From: Amycolatopsis sp. FDAARGOS 1241 | GTDB lineage: Bacteria; Actinomycetota; Actinomycetes; Mycobacteriales; Pseudonocardiaceae | Direction of reading: 5' to 3' | DNA: 64,000 nucleotides | NCBI RefSeq assembly: GCF_016889705.1 | Contig: NZ_CP069526.1 | Coordinates: 4,278,001-4,342,000 of the forward strand | Shown: positions 4,215 to 33,717 of the stretch, piece after piece | How positions within the stretch are numbered: position 1 is the first letter of the stretch | Layout: each line of letters begins with the position of its first letter | Program-made: the position numbers and the translations under genes | The notes under the pieces: model-generated | Told to the model about the DNA's origin: nothing | The model's input: only the letters and a program-made list of their open reading frames with translations | Database searches by the model: none

Positions 4215-5069
4215 TCAGCCGGCGGCGGGTGGTGAGACCTCGTAGTTGCCGTCGGTGCCCTTGACGGTGATCTTCACCTGCTGCGGCTTGCCGTTGATGG
4301 TCGCGGTGCACTCGAACGTGGCGCCGTCGGCGACCTTCTGCTCGGCCGGGCAGGTGACGCCGCCGACGCCTTCGATCTTGTAGGTGTCGGTGAGCAGCTT
4401 CGCGACGTCGGTCTGCATCTGGGTGTTGTTGAAGACCTCGGTCTTGAAGAAGCCCGGCGCGACGAACCCGAGGATCGCGACCACCGCGACGACCACGACG
4501 AGCGCGCCGACGCCGATGAACAGGCCCTTCTTCGACTTCGGCTGCTCTCCGGAGCCTCCGGCGGTCTGGGCCACGGCGGTGGCCTGGCCGTAGTCGTACT
4601 GGCCGGGTGGCTGCTGGCCGTAGGCGGGCTGGGCGTGCGGGCCGCTCGGGGGCTGCTGGCCGTAGAGCGGCTGCTGCTGCGGCCCGCTCTGCGGGTAGCC
4701 ACCGCCGGGCTGCTGCCCGTATGGGGGCTGCTGCTGGCGGTTGGGGTCGTAGGGCTGCCCGTACGGCTGCGGGGGCGGCTGCTGGCCCCACTGCGGCTGC
4801 TGCGGTGGGGTGAAGCCGCCGGGCTGTTGCCCGTACTGCGGTTGCTGGCCGTACTGGGGCTGCTGCTGGGGTTGCTGGGGTTGAACCCACTGGGTGGGCT
4901 GCGAGTCGTAGGTCTGGGGCTGCTGCTGGCCGTACTGCTGCGGGTTGTAGGGCTGCTGCTGTTCCTGCGGCCCGCTCGGCGGGTAGGCGCCGCCCGGCTG
5001 TTGCCCGTACTGCGGCTGCTGCCCGTACTGGGGCTGCTGGGGGTCGTTGCCGCCATACGGCGTGCTCAT
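4215..5069 (-). CDS. DUF4333 membrane protein with Gln/Pro/Tyr-rich N-terminus
   Basis: A 284-residue protein. The first 165 or so residues are low complexity, built from PQYGQQP-like repeats. A single transmembrane segment follows at about 178-204 (GVGALVVVVAVVAILGF), then an extracytoplasmic DUF4333 domain with paired cysteines (GVTCPAEQKV, TFECTATI) ending VKGTDGNYEVSPPAAG. ATG at 5069 follows GGAGG. The likely topology is cytoplasmic repeats and an external domain. It is the membrane-anchored counterpart of the lipoprotein at 2518-2907. Function unknown. Confidence 0.85.
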   Translation of the reverse strand: MSTPYGGNDPQQPQYGQQPQYGQQPGGAYPPSGPQEQQQPYNPQQYGQQQPQTYDSQPTQWVQPQQPQQQPQYGQQPQYGQQPGGFTPPQQPQWGQQPPPQPYGQPYDPNRQQQPPYGQQPGGGYPQSGPQQQPLYGQQPPSGPHAQPAYGQQPPGQYDYGQATAVAQTAGGSGEQPKSKKGLFIGVGALVVVVAVVAILGFVAPGFFKTEVFNNTQMQTDVAKLLTDTYKIEGVGGVTCPAEQKVADGATFECTATINGKPQQVKITVKGTDGNYEVSPPAAG

Positions 5070-10607: not shown

Positions 10608-11588
10608 TTAACGGCCGTAGGTTGACGGTAGGTGACGGGATCGGGCCACCGCGTCGGCCGCGCGCCGTCGAACGGCGTCCGCCAGTGTGACGGGGCTCTC
10701 CACCTGCGCATCTCCGCCGAGCCCGAGGACCAGGCGGACCATCCAGGACTCGTCCGCGTAGCGCATCCGGATCCGCAACCGGCCGCCGTCGAGCTCGTCG
10801 AGCTCTTCGCACGGGTAGTACTCGGCGACCCAGCGCGCGTCGGGGTCGAGCACGAGCTCGGCCTCCTGCTGGTCGGGCCGCACGGAGAACACGCCGTCGG
10901 ACAGGTCGGTGGGGCGGGCGTGCGCGGGCGGCGCGGCGGGTTCGTCGAGCACGGTCAGCTCATCGATGCGGTCCAGCCGGAACAGCCGCACCCCCTCGAC
11001 GCGGCGGCACCACGCTTCGAGGTAGCCGACGGCCTGCACGATCAGCAGCCGCATCGGGTCCACGGTGCGTTCGGTGACCTGGTCCTTGGACGCGGTGTAG
11101 TAGCGGATCCGCAGGGCGCGCCCGGCCTGCAGCGCGGCCGCGACCTGCTCGCGGGTCTTCGCGGCGCGTTTTCCCTCGCGCACGCCGCCGCCGACGACGA
11201 CACCAGCGGGCTGGGCCTGCCCGGCCGCGTCCTCGATCTTGGCGCTGGCGCGACGCACGGCGTCACCGTCGACCACGCCGGGGGTTTCGGCGAGCGCGCG
11301 CAACGCGACGAGCAGGGCGGTGGCCTCGCCGCCGGTGAGGCGCAGGGGCCGGCTCATGCCGGCGTCGTGGGTGACGACGATGGTGTCGCCTTCGAAGGAC
11401 AGGTCGATGAGGTCGCCGGGGCCGTAGCCGGGCAGACCGCACATCCACAGCAGCTCGAGGTCCTTGCGCAGCTGCCGGGGGGTGACGTCGAAGTCGTGGG
11501 CCGCCTCGTCGACGCGCACGCCGGGACGCGCGAGCAGGTAGGGCACGAGTGCGAGCAGGCGCGGCATGCGCTCTCCGGATCCACTCAC
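10608..11588 (-). CDS. pafC: PafC, WYL-domain transcriptional regulator
   Basis: A 326-residue protein with an N-terminal winged helix (FDVTPRQLRKDLELLWMCGL) and a WYL domain (ALRIRYYTASKDQVTERTVD, QAVGYLEAWCRR), then a WCX-like C-terminus. PafB and PafC form a heterodimer that activates LexA-independent DNA-damage promoters, with the WYL domain sensing a ligand. The GTG at 11588 overlaps the pafB TGA (GTGA, 4 bp), so translation is coupled. An ATG at 11567 with GGAG upstream is an alternative start. Confidence 0.93.
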   Translation of the reverse strand: MSGSGERMPRLLALVPYLLARPGVRVDEAAHDFDVTPRQLRKDLELLWMCGLPGYGPGDLIDLSFEGDTIVVTHDAGMSRPLRLTGGEATALLVALRALAETPGVVDGDAVRRASAKIEDAAGQAQPAGVVVGGGVREGKRAAKTREQVAAALQAGRALRIRYYTASKDQVTERTVDPMRLLIVQAVGYLEAWCRRVEGVRLFRLDRIDELTVLDEPAAPPAHARPTDLSDGVFSVRPDQQEAELVLDPDARWVAEYYPCEELDELDGGRLRIRMRYADESWMVRLVLGLGGDAQVESPVTLADAVRRRAADAVARSRHLPSTYGR

Positions 11589-12577
11589 CGGGCGCTCCCC
11601 TGCTCGGCGCGGGCGAGGACGGCCTCGAGCCGGTGCTGCACGGATTTGGCCAGCACGTCGGGTTCGAGCACGAGCACGTCGGGGCCTTGGGCGGCGATCC
11701 AGTCGGCGGCCGATTCGGGGAAGTACAGGCCGATCTCGACGACGTCGCCCTCTTCGCCGCCGATGGTTTCGCGGCCGACGACGGCGGCTCGGCGGCGGAC
11801 GCCCGCGGCGCGGCCGTCGGCGATCCAGAGCCGCGCGGTCGTGACGGGGTTCTGTTCGTCGCCGCTGTCGGTGACCGAGACGAGTTTGAGCAGGTTGACG
11901 CCCTCCGGCCGCGTCACGGCGCCGGGCGGGCCGATGGGCGTGACCGTGCCGGTGACCCGCGAGAGGCGGAAGCAGCGGGTGGCGCCGCGGTCGCGGTCGT
12001 GCCCGACGACGTACCAGCGGGCGCGCCACGACACGACGCCCCACGGTTCGAGCTCGCGCATCCGGCGCTCCGGGGAGCCACTGCGGCGGTATTCGAACCG
12101 CACGGCCTGGCCGTTCTGCACGGCGGCGAGCAGCGGTCCGAACGCCGGTTCGGCGCGCACGCGGGGTTCGATCACGGTGTTGGCCTGGTCGTCGACCTCG
12201 ACGCCGGCGGCGCGCAGCTTCACGAGAGCGCCCTGGGCCTGGCCGGTCAGCTCGGGCGAGTCCCACAGGCGCACCGCGAGGCCGACCGCGGCGGCTTCGT
12301 CGGGGGCCAGGTCGATCTCGCCCAGCTCGTAGTCGCGGCGGGCGATGCGGTAGCCCTCGATGGGGTCGAAGGCGGAGTTGCGGCCGGTCTCCAGCGGGAT
12401 GCCGAGCTCCCGCAGCTCGGTCTTGTCGCGTTCGAACGTGCGGAAGAAGGCCTCGTCGCTGGCCGCGTCGGCGTACCCGGGCACGATCCCGCGGATCCGC
12501 TCGGCGGTGAGGTACTGCCGGGTGGACAGGAGGGCGAGCACGAGGTTGACCAGCCGTTCGGCGCGTGCGGTGGACAC
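11585..12577 (-). CDS. pafB: PafB, WYL-domain transcriptional regulator
   Basis: A 330-residue regulator. The HTH at the N-terminus is followed by TFERDKTELRELGIPLE, typical of PafB, and by a WYL domain (AVRFEYRRSGSPERRMRELE, RWYVVGHDRDRGATR). It starts with GTG at 12577 and overlaps pafC by 4 bp. In M. tuberculosis pafA, pafB and pafC form one operon; here pafA is 2 kb away behind an SDR gene and a beta-propeller gene, so the pair must have its own promoter. It is divergent from the SDR gene. Confidence 0.93.
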   Translation of the reverse strand: MSTARAERLVNLVLALLSTRQYLTAERIRGIVPGYADAASDEAFFRTFERDKTELRELGIPLETGRNSAFDPIEGYRIARRDYELGEIDLAPDEAAAVGLAVRLWDSPELTGQAQGALVKLRAAGVEVDDQANTVIEPRVRAEPAFGPLLAAVQNGQAVRFEYRRSGSPERRMRELEPWGVVSWRARWYVVGHDRDRGATRCFRLSRVTGTVTPIGPPGAVTRPEGVNLLKLVSVTDSGDEQNPVTTARLWIADGRAAGVRRRAAVVGRETIGGEEGDVVEIGLYFPESAADWIAAQGPDVLVLEPDVLAKSVQHRLEAVLARAEQGSAR

Positions 12578-20699: not shown

Positions 20700-20813
20700 A
20701 CGTGCTCTTGGTTCCCATCTGTGCTGTGCACCCGTCCTGTGAACACCCGGGCGCGCTGTGCCGACACCGTGCCACGACACCGCCACGAACCCGCAGCGGC
20801 ACGCCGACCGGCG

Positions 20814-20838
20814 CCGTCCCCGGCACACCCGGGGACGG
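20814..20838 (-). terminator. Hairpin between pup and prcB, probable attenuator
   Basis: CCGTCCCCGG pairs perfectly with CCGGGGACGG across a 5-nt loop (cacac). It lies 17 bp past the pup stop codon and 114 bp before the prcB ATG. It may end part of the pup transcripts, giving more pup than prcBA mRNA. No U tract is seen, so its strength is uncertain. Confidence 0.55.
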
Positions 20839-20855
20839 TCACCGGCCGCGAACGA

Positions 20856-21050
20856 CTACTCGCCGCCCTTCTGCACGTAGGCGCGAACGAAGTCCTCGGC
20901 GTTCTCCTCCAGCACGTCGTCGATCTCGTCGAGGATCGTGTCGACGTCCTCGCCCATCTTCTCGCGCCGCTCCTGGCCCGCCGCTCCGGTGGCCTCGAAC
21001 TCCTCGTCGGAGTCGCCGCCGCCGTGTTTCTCGATCTTCTCCTGCGCCAT
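20856..21050 (-). CDS. pup: Prokaryotic ubiquitin-like protein Pup
   Basis: A 64-residue, acidic, mostly disordered protein. The central segment REKMGEDVDTILDEIDDVLE forms the helix that binds the Mpa coiled coil. It ends VQKGGE. The C-terminal Glu is encoded directly, so deamidation by Dop is not needed before PafA attaches it to lysines. ATG at 21050 follows GGGAGG. It lies between dop and prcB on the same strand. Confidence 0.97.
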   Translation of the reverse strand: MAQEKIEKHGGGDSDEEFEATGAAGQERREKMGEDVDTILDEIDDVLEENAEDFVRAYVQKGGE

Positions 21051-21079: not shown

Positions 21080-21085
21080 AGCCTA
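21080..21085 (-). promoter_or_regulatory. Possible -10 element for pup
   Basis: On the minus strand TAGGCT fits TANNNT and lies 29 bp upstream of the pup ATG, giving a short leader that includes the ribosome site. No clear -35 is seen. The 89-bp gap after dop makes a separate pup promoter plausible. Confidence 0.4.
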
Positions 21086-21139
21086 CCCAGCGGCCCCGAC
21101 ATTCGGGGCAACACCGCGGTCCCGATCCACCACCCCGGC

Positions 21140-26412: not shown

Positions 26413-28215
26413 CTACAGGTACTGACCCGTGTTGGTGGCGGTGTCGATCGCCCGCCCCGAGTCCTGGTTCTTGCCGGTGACGAGGGTGCGGATGTACACG
26501 ATCCGCTCCCCCTTCTTGCCGGAGATCCGGGCCCAGTCGTCCGGGTTCGTGGTGTTCGGCAGGTCCTCGTTCTCCGCGAACTCGTCGACTATCGCGTCCA
26601 GCAAGTGCTGCACGCGCAGGCCGGGCTGCTTCGTCTCCAGCACCGACTTGATCGCCGACTTCTTGGCCCGGTCCACGATGTTCTGGATCATGGCGCCCGA
26701 GTTGAAGTCGCGGAAGTACAGGACTTCCTTGTCCCCGTTGGCGTAGGTGACCTCCAGGAACCGGTTCTCGTCGCTCTCCTCGTACATGCGCTCGACGGTG
26801 TGCTGGATCATCGCGTCGAACGTGGCCTTCTGGTCCCCGCCGAACTCCGCCAGGTCGTCGGAGTGGATCGGCAGGCCCTCGGCCAGGTACTTCGAGAAGA
26901 TGTCCTTCGCGCCTTCGGCGTCCGGACGCTCGATCTTGATCTTCACGTCGAGCCGTCCCGGTCGCAGGATCGCCGGGTCGATCATGTCTTCGCGGTTGGA
27001 GGCGCCGATGACGATGACGTTCTCCAGGCCCTCGACACCGTCGATCTCCGACAGCAGCTGCGGCACGATCGTGGTCTCCACGTCGGAGGACACGCCCGAG
27101 CCACGGGTGCGGAAGATCGAGTCCATCTCGTCGAAGAACACGATGACCGGCGTGCCCTCGGAGGCCTTTTCCCGCGCCCGCTGGAAGATCAGCCGGATCG
27201 ACCGCTCGGTCTCACCGACGAACTTGTTCAGCAGCTCGGGACCCTTGATGTTGAGGAAGTAGGACTTGCCGTCCGCCTTCTCACCGCGGGCCTCGGCGAC
27301 CTTCTTGGCCAGGGAGTTGGCCACCGCCTTGGCGATGAGCGTCTTCCCGCAGCCGGGAGGCCCGTACAGCAGCACGCCCTTGGGCGGGCGCAGCTGGTAC
27401 TGCTGGTAGAGGTCCGCGTGCAGGAACGGCAGCTCCACGGCGTCGCGGATCTGCTCGATCTGCCGGGCCAGGCCACCGATGTCCTCGTAGCGGACGTCCG
27501 GCACCTCTTCCAGCACGAGGTCCTCGACCTCGGCCTTCGGCACGCGCTCGTACGCGTACCCGACCTTCGAGTCGACCAGCAGCGAGTCGCCTGGCTTGAG
27601 CGGCTGCTCGGTCAGCGGATCGGCGAGCAGGACCACCCGCTCCTCGTCCGCGTGCCCGACGACCAGTGCACGGGGGAGACCACCCTCGTCCTCGGGCGCC
27701 AGCACTTCGCGCAACGCGCACACCTCGCCGGTGCGCTCGAAGTCGCCGCCTTCGACGACCGTGAGCGCCTCGTTGAGGCGCAGGGCCTGACCTCGGCGCA
27801 GCGACGAGATCTCCACAGCCGGCGACACCGAGACCCGCATCTTGCGGCCCGCGGTGTAGACGTCCACCGTGTTGTCCTCGTACGAGGCGACGAAAACCCC
27901 GTACCCGCTCGGCGGCTGGGCCAGGCGGTCGACCTCCTCGCGGAGGGCGAGCAACTGGCCCCGCGCCTCGCGCAGGGTCTCGACCAGTTTCGTGTTGCGT
28001 TCGGTGAGCTGGCTCACCCGTTCGGTCGCCTCGGCGAGGCGCTGTTCCAGAACTCTGTTCTGGCGCGGTGAATCGGTGAGTTTGCGACGCAAGAGCGCCA
28101 CTTCTTCCTCGAGAAAGCGGATCTGCCGGGCTTGCTGCTCAGGCGTCTGCCCAGCTCCGCTCGTTGCTGAAGGGTCGGCCTCCTCGCGCCGACCTCCGGG
28201 AAGGTCATGATGCAT
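26413..28215 (-). CDS. mpa: Proteasome-activating AAA+ ATPase Mpa (ARC)
   Basis: A 600-residue AAA+ unfoldase. An N-terminal coiled coil at about 20-85 ([20 protein letters not shown] onwards) binds Pup. OB domains follow, then the AAA module: Walker A GPPGCGKT near 290, Walker [10 protein letters not shown], and the arginine-finger region [13 protein letters not shown]. It ends TNTGQYL, the motif that docks into PrcA. ATG at 28215 is chosen because GAGGAGG sits 6 bp upstream; an in-frame ATG at 28242 has no such site. A PafBC-type promoter lies just upstream. Confidence 0.97.
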
Positions 28216-28245
28216 CGGGCACCTCCTCGGAGTGCTTTTCATTCC

Positions 28246-28268
28246 ACGGTACCGGCGATCACCGACAA
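28246..28268 (-). promoter_or_regulatory. PafBC-type (RecA-NDp) promoter of mpa
   Basis: On the minus strand TTGTCGGTG (28268-28260), 8 bp ATCGCCGG, then TACCGT (28251-28246). This fits the published LexA-independent DNA-damage promoter consensus TTGTCRGTG-N8-TAN3T, which PafBC activates. Transcription would start near 28239, about 24 nt before the mpa ATG, leaving room for the GAGGAGG site. A scan by eye found no other match in the window. Confidence 0.75.
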
Positions 28269-28546
28269 GAAAAGGCCTTTCCGCATCACAAGATCGGCGC
28301 GTCGCGATTTCCGCACCCGCTCAGCACGGTCGGCGCCGCAGCGCAAGCGGCCGAATCGGTGCCCGGACACCGAGGGCCGTCACGCCCGGTTCCACCAGGC
28401 GAAAGCGAGCACGCTCGAAGTACCCCGGCACCGGTGCCGCCAACCGTCCCCGGCGCCGGATTCCGGCCTGAGCGCACGGATCCCGGCTGCCCTGGCTAGC
28501 ATCCGGGACCAGGTCGTACTCCGAAGAACGTCAGGGGGCTCCACAC
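28269..28546. other. Intergenic region between mpa and the Gln-rich membrane protein gene
   Basis: No convincing gene. On the plus strand TAGCAT at 28497-28502 fits a -10 element for the gene starting at 28547, with about 40 nt of leader and an AGGGGG ribosome site. The rest shows nothing I can name. Confidence 0.5.
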
Positions 28547-29566
28547 ATGACCTACCCGCCGCAGCAGCCCGGTGGTCACGGCCAGCAGGGCGGTGGCTAC
28601 GGAGGTTACGGCCAGCAGCCGAATCCCTACGGACAGTCCCAGCCCGGCGGTGGTCAGCCCCAGTCCGGCCCGCAGCAGCAGCCCGGTTACCCCGGCGGGC
28701 AGCCGCAGCAGGGCCAGCAGCCGTACCAGCCACAGCAGGGCGGGTGGGGACAGCAGGGCGGCTACCCACAGAGCGGGCTGCAGCAGCAGCCCGGGTACCC
28801 CCAGCAGCAGCAACCGCCCCAGTACGGGCAGCAGGATCCGTACCAGCAGGGCGGAACGCAGCAGTTCGGACGGCCCGAGCCCTACCAGCAGCCCGGTGGG
28901 ACGCAGCAGTACGGACAGCCGGAATCGGTCCAGCAGGGCGGGTTCGGCGACCAGTACGGCCAACCGGGTGGTTACCACGAATGGGGCGGTTACGGCGAGG
29001 AACCGCCCAAGAAAAAGAAAACCGGCCTGATCATCGGGATCGTCGTGGGCGTCGTCGTGGTGGTCGGCGCCGCCGTCGGGCTCATCATCGGGCTGTCCGG
29101 TGGCGACAAGGGCAAAACGGACACCGCAGCCCCGTCGGCCGCGCCCGCGCCGACCAGCGCGCCGAACAGCGGCGCGCCTACGCTCCCCAGCGCGAGCGCC
29201 GGGTCGAACCCCTCCACGGGGTCGACCGGTTCGACGGGCTCGACCGGTTCGTCCGGTGGTCCCGCCGCACCCGCGCCCGGCGGCAAGCCGAGCGCGCAGG
29301 AGCTGTTCCAGGCCGCCGCGGCCGACTTCAGCGCCGGCGACGGCGCAGCGCTCGCGAACCTCGCGTGCCGCAGCCTCTACGACGGCGGCGCGGTGCAGAT
29401 CCAGACGATCCAGGTCCAGCTCACCGGTACCGCACAGGAGAACGGTGACAAGGCGTCCGTGCGGTACCGGGCGACCCAGGGCACCAAGCAGGCGAACGGG
29501 ACGATGACCTCCAAGCGTGAGGCCGGTGTCTGGTGCCTCGTCGACGCCCAGGCGGACAAGCAGTGA
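28547..29566 (+). CDS. Gln/Gly/Tyr-rich single-span membrane protein with external domain
   Basis: A 339-residue protein. Residues 1-160 are Gln/Gly/Pro/Tyr-rich repeats. A basic KKKKTG precedes a transmembrane helix at about 163-185 ([20 protein letters not shown]). A Ser/Thr/Pro linker with GST repeats leads to an external domain from about 245 ([20 protein letters not shown]) resembling DUF4878-like folds, with two Cys (LACRS, VWCLV). The layout parallels 4215-5069. Function unknown. It is 10 bp upstream of a related smaller gene. Confidence 0.8.
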
Positions 29567-32149: not shown

Positions 32150-32795
32150 CCGGGCTTCCCGGACGAGTGGTGTCGGTCATCCGCCGCCGGCTTCTCGCTA
32201 CCCCTGGGCCCGCAGCACCCCGCCACGAGATCACTCCCGCACCGCAGGCCCGGCAACCCGACCACGCTCTCGGCGCCGGCTTCGTCCCTGCCCCGCGGGC
32301 GCCACAACCCGACCTCGAGATCCCCCGGCCCCGTCCCACGCGACGGACCCCGCGCAACCCCACCCGCGAGATCACGACGGCTTCGCCCCTCCCCAGGGCG
32401 CGCAGCCAACCCCACCCCGGGAACGCCCGGGCCTCGTCCTACGTCACGAGGTCGCCGCAACCCGACCCGTGGGCCGCCGACTTCCCCCCCCCAAGGCCCG
32501 CAGCAAACCCCACCCCGAGATCGCCGCACCTCAGGTCTGCAGCGACCTGCTGCGGGAACGCGCTGCCCTTTCCTCGCCACGGGATCGCGGCCACCCCACC
32601 GCCGGATCGCGCCGCCCGTTTCATCCCCGCGGGGCCGCACGACCACGGGATCGCGCCGACTTCGTCCCCCACCACGCGCTCTCAGCAGCCCCACCTCGCC
32701 GACGGCCTCGTCCCACGCCACGGACCCCACTCGCGGGATCGCGCCGCTTTGCCGAAGGCGAAGCAATCGAACACAGCGAGGCAATCAGATCCTGT
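32150..32795. repeat. Degenerate tandem array of about 45-55-bp units
   Basis: This 710-bp gap has no credible gene. Read on the minus strand it holds about 12 diverged units beginning with a GCGATCTCG-like core, then GGGTGGGGTT, GCTGCGGGCC and GACGAAGCCG. Spacing varies and some units are partial. The core and its right flank match the right end of the dispersed hairpin repeat at 35523-35680 (GCGATCTCGCGGTGGGTTTG). Near 32745 a TTCGCCTTCGGC hairpin resembles the terminal hairpin of that family. Long open frames here are by-products of the repeats. Confidence 0.7.
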
Positions 32796-32808
32796 CGGTG
32801 GGCGGCGT

Positions 32809-32814
32809 TACCCT
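32809..32814 (+). promoter_or_regulatory. -10 element of a leaderless RecB-like nuclease transcript
   Basis: TACCCT fits TANNNT and is followed by 6 bp (ctggcc) and the ATG at 32821. No ribosome site is present. Leaderless initiation is inferred. Confidence 0.55.
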
Positions 32815-32820
32815 CTGGCC

Positions 32821-33717
32821 ATGCCCGACACCGCTACAGTCACCACCCCACCGGAAACCGGTGACGAGCCCGTCCGGAGACGTCCGGCGCTGTCGCCTTC
32901 GCGTGCGAGCGACTTCAAGCAGTGCCCGTTGCTCTACCGCTTCCGTGCGGTCGACCGGTTGCCCGAGGTTCCCACGAAGGCGCAGGTGCGGGGCACACTC
33001 GTGCACGCCGTGCTGGAGCGGCTGTTCTCGCTGCCCGCGGGCGAGCGGGTGGCACCGCGGGCGAAGGACCTGCTGGGGCCCACGTGGGAAGAGCTGTCGG
33101 CGGCGAGTCCGGAGTGGACCGACCAGCTGTTCGCCGGTGAGGACGCCGAGGAGACCGGCAAGTGGCTGGCGTCGGCGGAGAAGCTGCTGGACGCGTACTT
33201 CGAGCTGGAGGACCCGCGTCGGCTGGAGCCGGAGGCGTGTGAGCTGCACGTGGAGATCGAGCTGGGCTCCGGTGTGCTGTTGCGGGGCTACATCGATCGC
33301 GTCGACGTCGCGCCCACCGGCGAGATCCGGGTGGTGGACTACAAGACCGGGGCCGCGCCGCGCGAGATCGGCGAGGCCAAGGCGATGTTCCAGATGAAGT
33401 TCTACGCCGTGGTGCTGTGGCGGTTGCGCGGCGTCGTGCCGCGCCAGCTGAAGCTGATGTACCTCACCGACGGCCAGTCGCTCGCCTACACACCCGACGA
33501 GGCGGAGCTGGTGCGGTTCGAGCACACGCTCGAGGCGATCTGGCAGGCGATCCTCAAGGCGGGCAAGACGGGTGACTTCAGGCCCAATCCCGGCAAGCTC
33601 TGTTCGTGGTGCGACCACCAGGCGCACTGCCCGGAGTTCGGTGGCACGCCCCCGGAGTACCCCGGCTGGCCGGAGCCGGATGGCGGCGAAGAGTCCGCGC
33701 TGGACCGGGCCGACTGA
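32821..33717 (+). CDS. RecB-like PD-(D/E)XK nuclease with probable Fe-S cluster
   Basis: A 298-residue PDDEXK_1 nuclease. Active-site residues lie in GYIDRVDV near 157-164 and RVVDYKTG near 170-177. A cysteine in SDFKQCPLLYR near 38 and three in LCSWCDHQAHC near 260-270 match the four-cysteine Fe-S pattern of AddB and Cas4 nucleases. The family processes DNA ends. It corresponds to Rv2119 by position. Its TGA overlaps the ATG of the thioesterase gene by one base. Confidence 0.88.
   Translation: MPDTATVTTPPETGDEPVRRRPALSPSRASDFKQCPLLYRFRAVDRLPEVPTKAQVRGTLVHAVLERLFSLPAGERVAPRAKDLLGPTWEELSAASPEWTDQLFAGEDAEETGKWLASAEKLLDAYFELEDPRRLEPEACELHVEIELGSGVLLRGYIDRVDVAPTGEIRVVDYKTGAAPREIGEAKAMFQMKFYAVVLWRLRGVVPRQLKLMYLTDGQSLAYTPDEAELVRFEHTLEAIWQAILKAGKTGDFRPNPGKLCSWCDHQAHCPEFGGTPPEYPGWPEPDGGEESALDRAD

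Follow-up and report, generated by a model that had tools for sequence, protein, structure and literature searches.

In 2017, the reason for pafBC being located among the proteasome genes was described as elusive, and the same paper went no further than speculating about a direct transcriptional tie between PafBC and the proteasome (PMC5656591). A 2021 review explains the location by post-translational clearance of regulon proteins, RecA and other members of the regulon being pupylated and cleared by the proteasome in M. smegmatis (PMC8223512). The locus described here raises the question of whether the tie also exists at the level of transcription, through a PafBC-dependent promoter in front of mpa, which encodes the proteasome ATPase. 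A search of openly licensed literature returned no published PafBC promoter at mpa or pup, which is weak evidence of absence.

The predicted promoter element upstream of mpa

The window (the whole 64-kb stretch of DNA that was analyzed) encodes mpa at 26413..28215 on the minus strand (TIGR03689, E 2e-254), with its ATG at 28215-28213. Direct reading of the sequence revealed TTGTCGGTG-ATCGCCGG-TACCGT on the minus strand (28268-28246), 30 bases before this ATG, confirming the site that a sequence-only reading had placed at 28246..28268. The published consensus of PafBC-dependent (RecA-NDp) promoters is tTGTCRgtg, 8 nt and TannnT (PMC5656591), and all 12 of its specified bases are matched at mpa. 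The element consists of a PafBC-type upstream (-26) box, TTGTCGGTG (28260..28268, -), which was recognized from sequence and conservation, an unusually conserved 8-nt spacer, ATCGCCGG (28252..28259, -), which we assign to an older mpa core promoter, and a -10 element of the TANNNT kind, TACCGT (28246..28251, -). Transcription is predicted to start around 28239-28240 (-), 6-7 nt past TACCGT. A ribosome-binding site, GAGGAGG, can be read directly at 28222..28228 (-).

The site does not have the layout of a sigma-A housekeeping promoter (TTGACA-N17-TATAAT, 16-18 nt): it has a -10 of the TANNNT type but no -35, as candidate hexamers 16, 17 and 18 nt from the -10 match TTGACA at 3, 1 and 0 of 6 bases. 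The lack of a good sigma-A -35 at this distance is a feature expected of PafBC promoters. Promoter prediction returned no sigma-70-type promoter in 28180-28560, a weak result given that shuffled sequences gave none either, and no known RNA family reached the gathering threshold in the mpa leader (27900-28800). We also considered a palindromic operator and rejected it, since CGGTACCG is palindromic in the family but its mycobacterial equivalent, CGGTAGCG, is not.

Both subunits of the regulator are encoded on the same strand as mpa. The pafB gene (11585..12577, -) encodes WYL and WCX domains, and pafC (10608..11567, -) encodes HTH_PafC, WYL and WCX domains; the latter was read from an internal ATG, its true start lying perhaps some codons upstream. 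The distance of 14 kb to mpa given by the sequence-only reading holds, with 13.8 kb between the pafB start and the mpa stop. PafB and PafC align over almost their full length with the respective M. smegmatis chains of the solved complexes 7p5x and 9fnd (E 2.9e-88 and 1.2e-80). Single-stranded DNA serves as the activator of PafBC: with PafB in contact with the -26 motif and PafC with domain 4 of sigma-A, the complex directs the housekeeping polymerase to PafBC-dependent promoters (PMC11804915).

One of the refuting conditions given with the sequence-only reading, lack of conservation of the motif upstream of mpa in close relatives, did not apply: the motif was conserved both in the genus and in most genera of the family. 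The comparison covered 80 genomes of the genus, judged to be Amycolatopsis from its named relatives, all of which encode mpa. The mpa 23-mer occurred with at most one mismatch in 75 of them, in a single copy each, at 27-32 nt from the mpa match in 73 genomes and at 125-134 nt in two genomes whose match starts late. The remaining five carried it at mpa with two mismatches, so that 80/80 genomes lie within two mismatches of the 23 bases.

At the level of the family, sites were scored by their matches to the 12 specified bases of the consensus and called at 10/12 or more. An mpa match was present in 109 of 110 genomes (all except G183), and 107 loci were anchored on the -10; the two others were L211, at a contig end, and L200, which scores 12/12 with TATCGT. 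The threshold was reached at mpa in 83 of the 107 anchored genomes, representing 36 of 45 alignable genera, and in 35 of these genera by every genome. Dinucleotide shuffles of 102 mpa regions (five of the 107 loci were dropped for want of a usable mpa start) yielded a mean of 0.62 and a maximum of 3 regions at 10/12, compared with the 83 observed. The nine genera in which no genome reached it were g3, g5, g6, g23, g36, g37, g39, g42 and g43; by matching of named loci, g5 is Pseudonocardia-like, g42 is Actinomycetospora-like and g3 is a MAG lineage. The box is likewise absent at mpa in five of six named Pseudonocardia.

Sites of the same class at repair genes, pup and elsewhere

The motif occurs in excess in this genome. 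Exact matches to the consensus numbered 19 in 9.8 Mb versus 0 for a reversed control, and 88 versus 11 when one mismatch was allowed. Ten of the 19 exact matches are members of one dispersed intergenic repeat. Among the nine others, repair-type genes found downstream encode a beta sliding clamp paralogue, a DinB polymerase and a 3'-5' exonuclease with a GIY-YIG domain, and a further match precedes a 183-residue open frame with part of an NAD-dependent DNA ligase domain. The rest precede mpa itself, a TfoX-like protein (below the Pfam cut-off), an OpuAC substrate-binding protein, a beta-lactamase-fold protein and a small protein without a Pfam match. Repair genes of this genome are thus among those marked by the motif, though other genes carry it as well.

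The dispersed repeat starts with TTGTCGGTGGTGGCCGATAGAATGGA, a PafBC-like promoter, and occurs in at least 26 genome copies with up to three mismatches, versus 0 for the reversed control. Ten copies were read: most run on into a GC-rich inverted repeat, and the downstream gene is not consistent among them. None of the 26 copies lies inside the window. These elements possibly represent short damage-driven transcripts or a mobile remnant.

Within the window, six matches with at most two mismatches were found, while 1.38 were expected from shuffles. The sequence-only reading had seen no second match in 64 kb; this stands for exact matches, but near matches before pup and before a RecB-type nuclease gene had been missed. 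Besides these, two-mismatch matches lie at 4378, 8020 and 11865. The nuclease, a RecB-type PD-(D/E)XK protein (32821..33717, +), is preceded by CTGTCGGTG-N8-TACCCT (32792..32814, +), which scores 11/12 with one mismatch and ends 6 nt before the ATG. From the gene order we take it to be the counterpart of Rv2119. In recA-deleted M. tuberculosis, rv2119, a recB-like exonuclease gene, is overexpressed under mitomycin (PMC8151990). With the -10 ending so close to the ATG, the nuclease gene looks leaderless (window 32792-32821, +), a layout that recurs in this genome at the boxed genes for the clamp, DinB, the ligase-like frame and the exonuclease. Across the family, sites scoring 10/12 or more precede the exonuclease gene at 25 of 30 loci and the RecB nuclease gene at 21 of 30, both being plain counts without a shuffle control.

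The second near match, ATGTCGGGG-N8-TAGGCT (21080..21102, -), lies between dop and pup and scores 10/12 with two mismatches. The pup gene itself (20856..21050, -) encodes 64 residues ending in GGE. A site of 10/12 or more was present before pup in 25 of 50 family regions, against a mean of 0.125 and a maximum of 2 in 200 shuffles, while 18 of the 50 scored 8 or less. In other families of the order, the threshold was reached in 4 of 22 regions (24 loci, two of which yielded no pup) versus 0.015 expected. A box before pup in half of the family regions would make the predicted loop wider than the sequence-only reading had proposed.

Upstream of dop, none of 30 family loci displayed a site of 10/12 or more, and candidate boxes before dop, pafA and pafB in the window were rejected, the best of them scoring 7/12. 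Across the family, dop often carries CCGTAGGCT a few bases before its ATG (window 22648; loci L339-L368), a leaderless-looking promoter with no PafBC box. A hairpin of 19 GC-rich pairs is predicted between pup and prcB (window 20700-20860, -), although the whole stretch folds only 1.7 SD better than shuffles. This hairpin may mean that induction of pup does not reach the core proteasome genes prcBA.

Conservation of the box and of the core next to it

Column by column, the conserved block at mpa runs from the edge of the box to the -10. Among the 45 genera, identity is 38-42/45 at box positions G3-G9 and 25-42/45 over the whole box, compared with 13-27/45 in the columns upstream, with one exception at 38; the 43 upstream columns average 0.43. 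When seven clearly boxless genera are excluded, G3-G7 average 0.96 over the remaining 38. Position T2 is kept in 32 of 45 genera at mpa (variants include TCGTCGGTG, TAGTCGGTG and others) versus 24 of 25 exonuclease sites that score 10 or more. The spacer and -10 stand above the box, with columns -8 to -1 at 37-45/45.

This is where the mpa site departs from its class. Pairwise identity of the spacer is 0.94 at mpa, compared with 0.41 at the exonuclease gene, 0.43 at the RecB nuclease gene and 0.64 at pup, and the same picture is obtained on matched genera (0.94 vs 0.41, 0.96 vs 0.43 and 0.92 vs 0.64, respectively). Identity of the -10 triplet is 1.0 at mpa, 0.51-0.52 at the exonuclease and RecB genes and 0.54 at pup. 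An unconstrained spacer, which is usual at the other PafBC-type sites of this family and lies outside the published definition, is therefore not a property of the mpa site.

The core also outlives the box. The spacer persists at mpa in genera g23, g6 and g43, where the box is gone or weak. Meanwhile, the box is absent from the mpa position in all 13 named Mycobacteriaceae loci, one of which has a 10/12 match elsewhere in its upstream region. Eight of these 13 loci carry ATCGCCGG-TA[CG]CGT at mpa, and all 13 carry CCGGTAGC[GT]T. The mycobacterial core (ATCGCCGG-TAGCGT) thus resembles the window's in its spacer, in the kind of -10 and in its place at mpa, and differs from it in lacking the TTGTCGGTG box. 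Over-conservation of the spacer and -10, together with their survival in g23, g6 and g43, where a good box is lacking, indicates that something besides PafBC constrains the element. As the core is kept without the box, mpa is probably also transcribed without PafBC. The boxless mycobacterial mpa fits the report that levels of Dop, Mpa, PrcA and PrcB are unchanged in an unstressed pafBC mutant of M. smegmatis (PMC5656591).

Elsewhere in the order and phylum, the box was sought at mpa and rejected, the best score being 9/12 among the 29 loci scored besides the window's own (mpa was present in 69 of 149 genomes). According to an initial search described in one paper, the M. smegmatis motif is apparently not conserved in Streptomyces venezuelae (PMC9380542).

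On a tree of Mpa, the named rows nearest to the window are Amycolatopsis circi, A. rifamycinica, A. orientalis and A. thailandensis. One clade of 77 rows has the box in 72, while 5 of the 46 rows outside it reach 10. These five (Rhodococcus spelaei, Nocardia fusca, Mycolicibacterium peregrinum, Pseudonocardia oceani and Blastococcus litoris) were not counted as support, and they illustrate that a score of 10 alone is no proof. The tree needs 10 changes of the box, 8 of which are forced by well-supported branches. The simplest reading, with modest support, is one gain, a few losses and scattered borderline scores outside the clade; as the tree was built by a quick method that leaves 38 of 116 inner branches open, a single gain is favored and not proven. 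PafC was found in 27 of 27 family genomes tested, those lacking the box included. Absence of the box can therefore not be traced to absence of the regulator, and covariation of the two was useless as a test.

Readings of the mpa site and a predicted damage loop

For the mpa site, its sequence, its position, its conservation, its company of repair genes and the presence of PafBC are established. The explanation that we consider probable as a whole is a predicted PafBC-dependent promoter of mpa in the core Pseudonocardiaceae, with the box added to an older core. The likeness to mycobacterial PafBC-dependent (RecA-NDp) promoters, such as recA P1, lies in the consensus and its spacing, in the repair genes that share the motif here and in the orthologues of PafB and PafC; the mpa site differs in having a proteasome gene as its target and in a spacer and -10 triplet that are almost invariant across the family. 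Several findings weigh against this explanation: the over-conserved spacer and -10 triplet, the weaker keeping of T2 at mpa, the presence of PafC in box-lacking genomes, the nine genera with no 10/12 site, the 18 of 50 pup regions at 8 or less, and the unchanged Dop, Mpa, PrcA and PrcB levels of the unstressed M. smegmatis mutant. The PafBC-type promoter proposed by the sequence-only reading is thus upheld by the conserved box, the encoded regulator and the repair genes, and falls short in that spacer and TACCGT are conserved for some further reason, as shown by their being kept in boxless genera and, as ATCGCCGG-TAGCGT, in mycobacteria.

This over-conservation could instead indicate that the element is chiefly a constitutive or otherwise regulated core promoter with another reader, resembling the box only at its upstream end, and that mpa is not induced by damage. 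The higher conservation of spacer and -10 (columns -8 to -1 at 37-45/45) than of the box (25-42/45), the spacer identity of 0.94 against 0.41-0.43 at the exonuclease and RecB sites, and the boxless core seen at 8 of 13 named mycobacterial loci and in genera g23, g6 and g43 all speak for it. Nevertheless, conservation starts at the box edge, with G3-G7 averaging 0.96 over 38 genera, sites of 10/12 or more occur in 83 of 102 regions versus 0.62 in shuffles, and repair genes of the same genomes have the same box; we regard this alternative as unlikely.

It is more improbable still that the reader of the motif is ClgR or a WYL-type activator other than PafBC. In M. smegmatis, ClgR has been reported to recognize the region of the recA P1 promoter, and in M. 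tuberculosis its expression induces prcB and prcA (PMC5656591); another WYL activator answers genotoxic stress in mycobacteria (PMC10693628). However, it is PafB that contacts the -26 motif (PMC11804915), and the PafB encoded here aligns nearly full length with the M. smegmatis chain (E 2.9e-88). A chance match, or debris of the dispersed repeat with its box-like start and at least 26 copies, might be suspected from the 10 of 19 exact matches that belong to that repeat. This idea is already contradicted, and its probability is negligible: the spacer at mpa differs from that of the repeat, and across 80 genus genomes and 36 genera the site keeps its position in front of mpa.

Returning to the predicted PafBC-dependent promoter, its likeliest history, judged from the sequence comparisons, is that a PafBC box was added onto an older mpa core promoter. 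In this respect, the mpa site is, on sequence grounds, more than a PafBC promoter, and the over-conserved core marks a possible unknown input into mpa. A bolder and less likely extension is a double-purpose promoter. Here, an ancient core, ATCGCCGG-TASCGT, predating the split of Mycobacteriaceae and Pseudonocardiaceae, would be read by an as yet undescribed regulator or through an unusual kind of polymerase recognition, and PafBC would have been spliced on later and would act at pup too. The tag-and-unfold step would then have joined the DNA-damage regulon of one family and would set the duration of that regulon.

From the predicted PafBC-dependent promoter, we infer the following use, induction and feedback. 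DNA damage would generate single-stranded DNA and thereby activate PafBC, which would bind TTGTCGGTG and let transcription by the housekeeping RNA polymerase begin some 6-7 nt past TACCGT. The resulting mRNA, with its short leader and good ribosome site, would yield more Mpa, and the weaker and more variable box at pup would probably act likewise on the tag, in roughly half of the genomes compared. Damage would thus raise the tag and the unfoldase along with repair enzymes whose later clearance goes through pupylation, amounting to a built-in off-switch; a joint rise of Mpa and Pup under one activator would speed the removal of regulon proteins. The box would have been added, most simply once in an ancestor, to the ATCGCCGG-TASCGT core that mycobacteria use without it, and basal transcription of mpa independent of PafBC would be expected as well.

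Such a loop would share with the link described in M. smegmatis a damage response tied to the Pup-proteasome system and a predicted need for clearance after damage. It would differ in that the M. smegmatis link is post-translational, with proteasome proteins unchanged without PafBC in unstressed cells, whereas the tie considered here would be transcriptional. At mpa it would be specific to this lineage, the box being absent there from all 13 named Mycobacteriaceae loci. Collectively, the conserved box at mpa and the looser one at pup would add a direct transcriptional tie between PafBC and the proteasome in one actinobacterial family. They suggest that damaged cells raise their capacity to clear proteins, and raise the question of whether damage boosts the machinery that feeds the proteasome and, in doing so, brings the damage response to an end.
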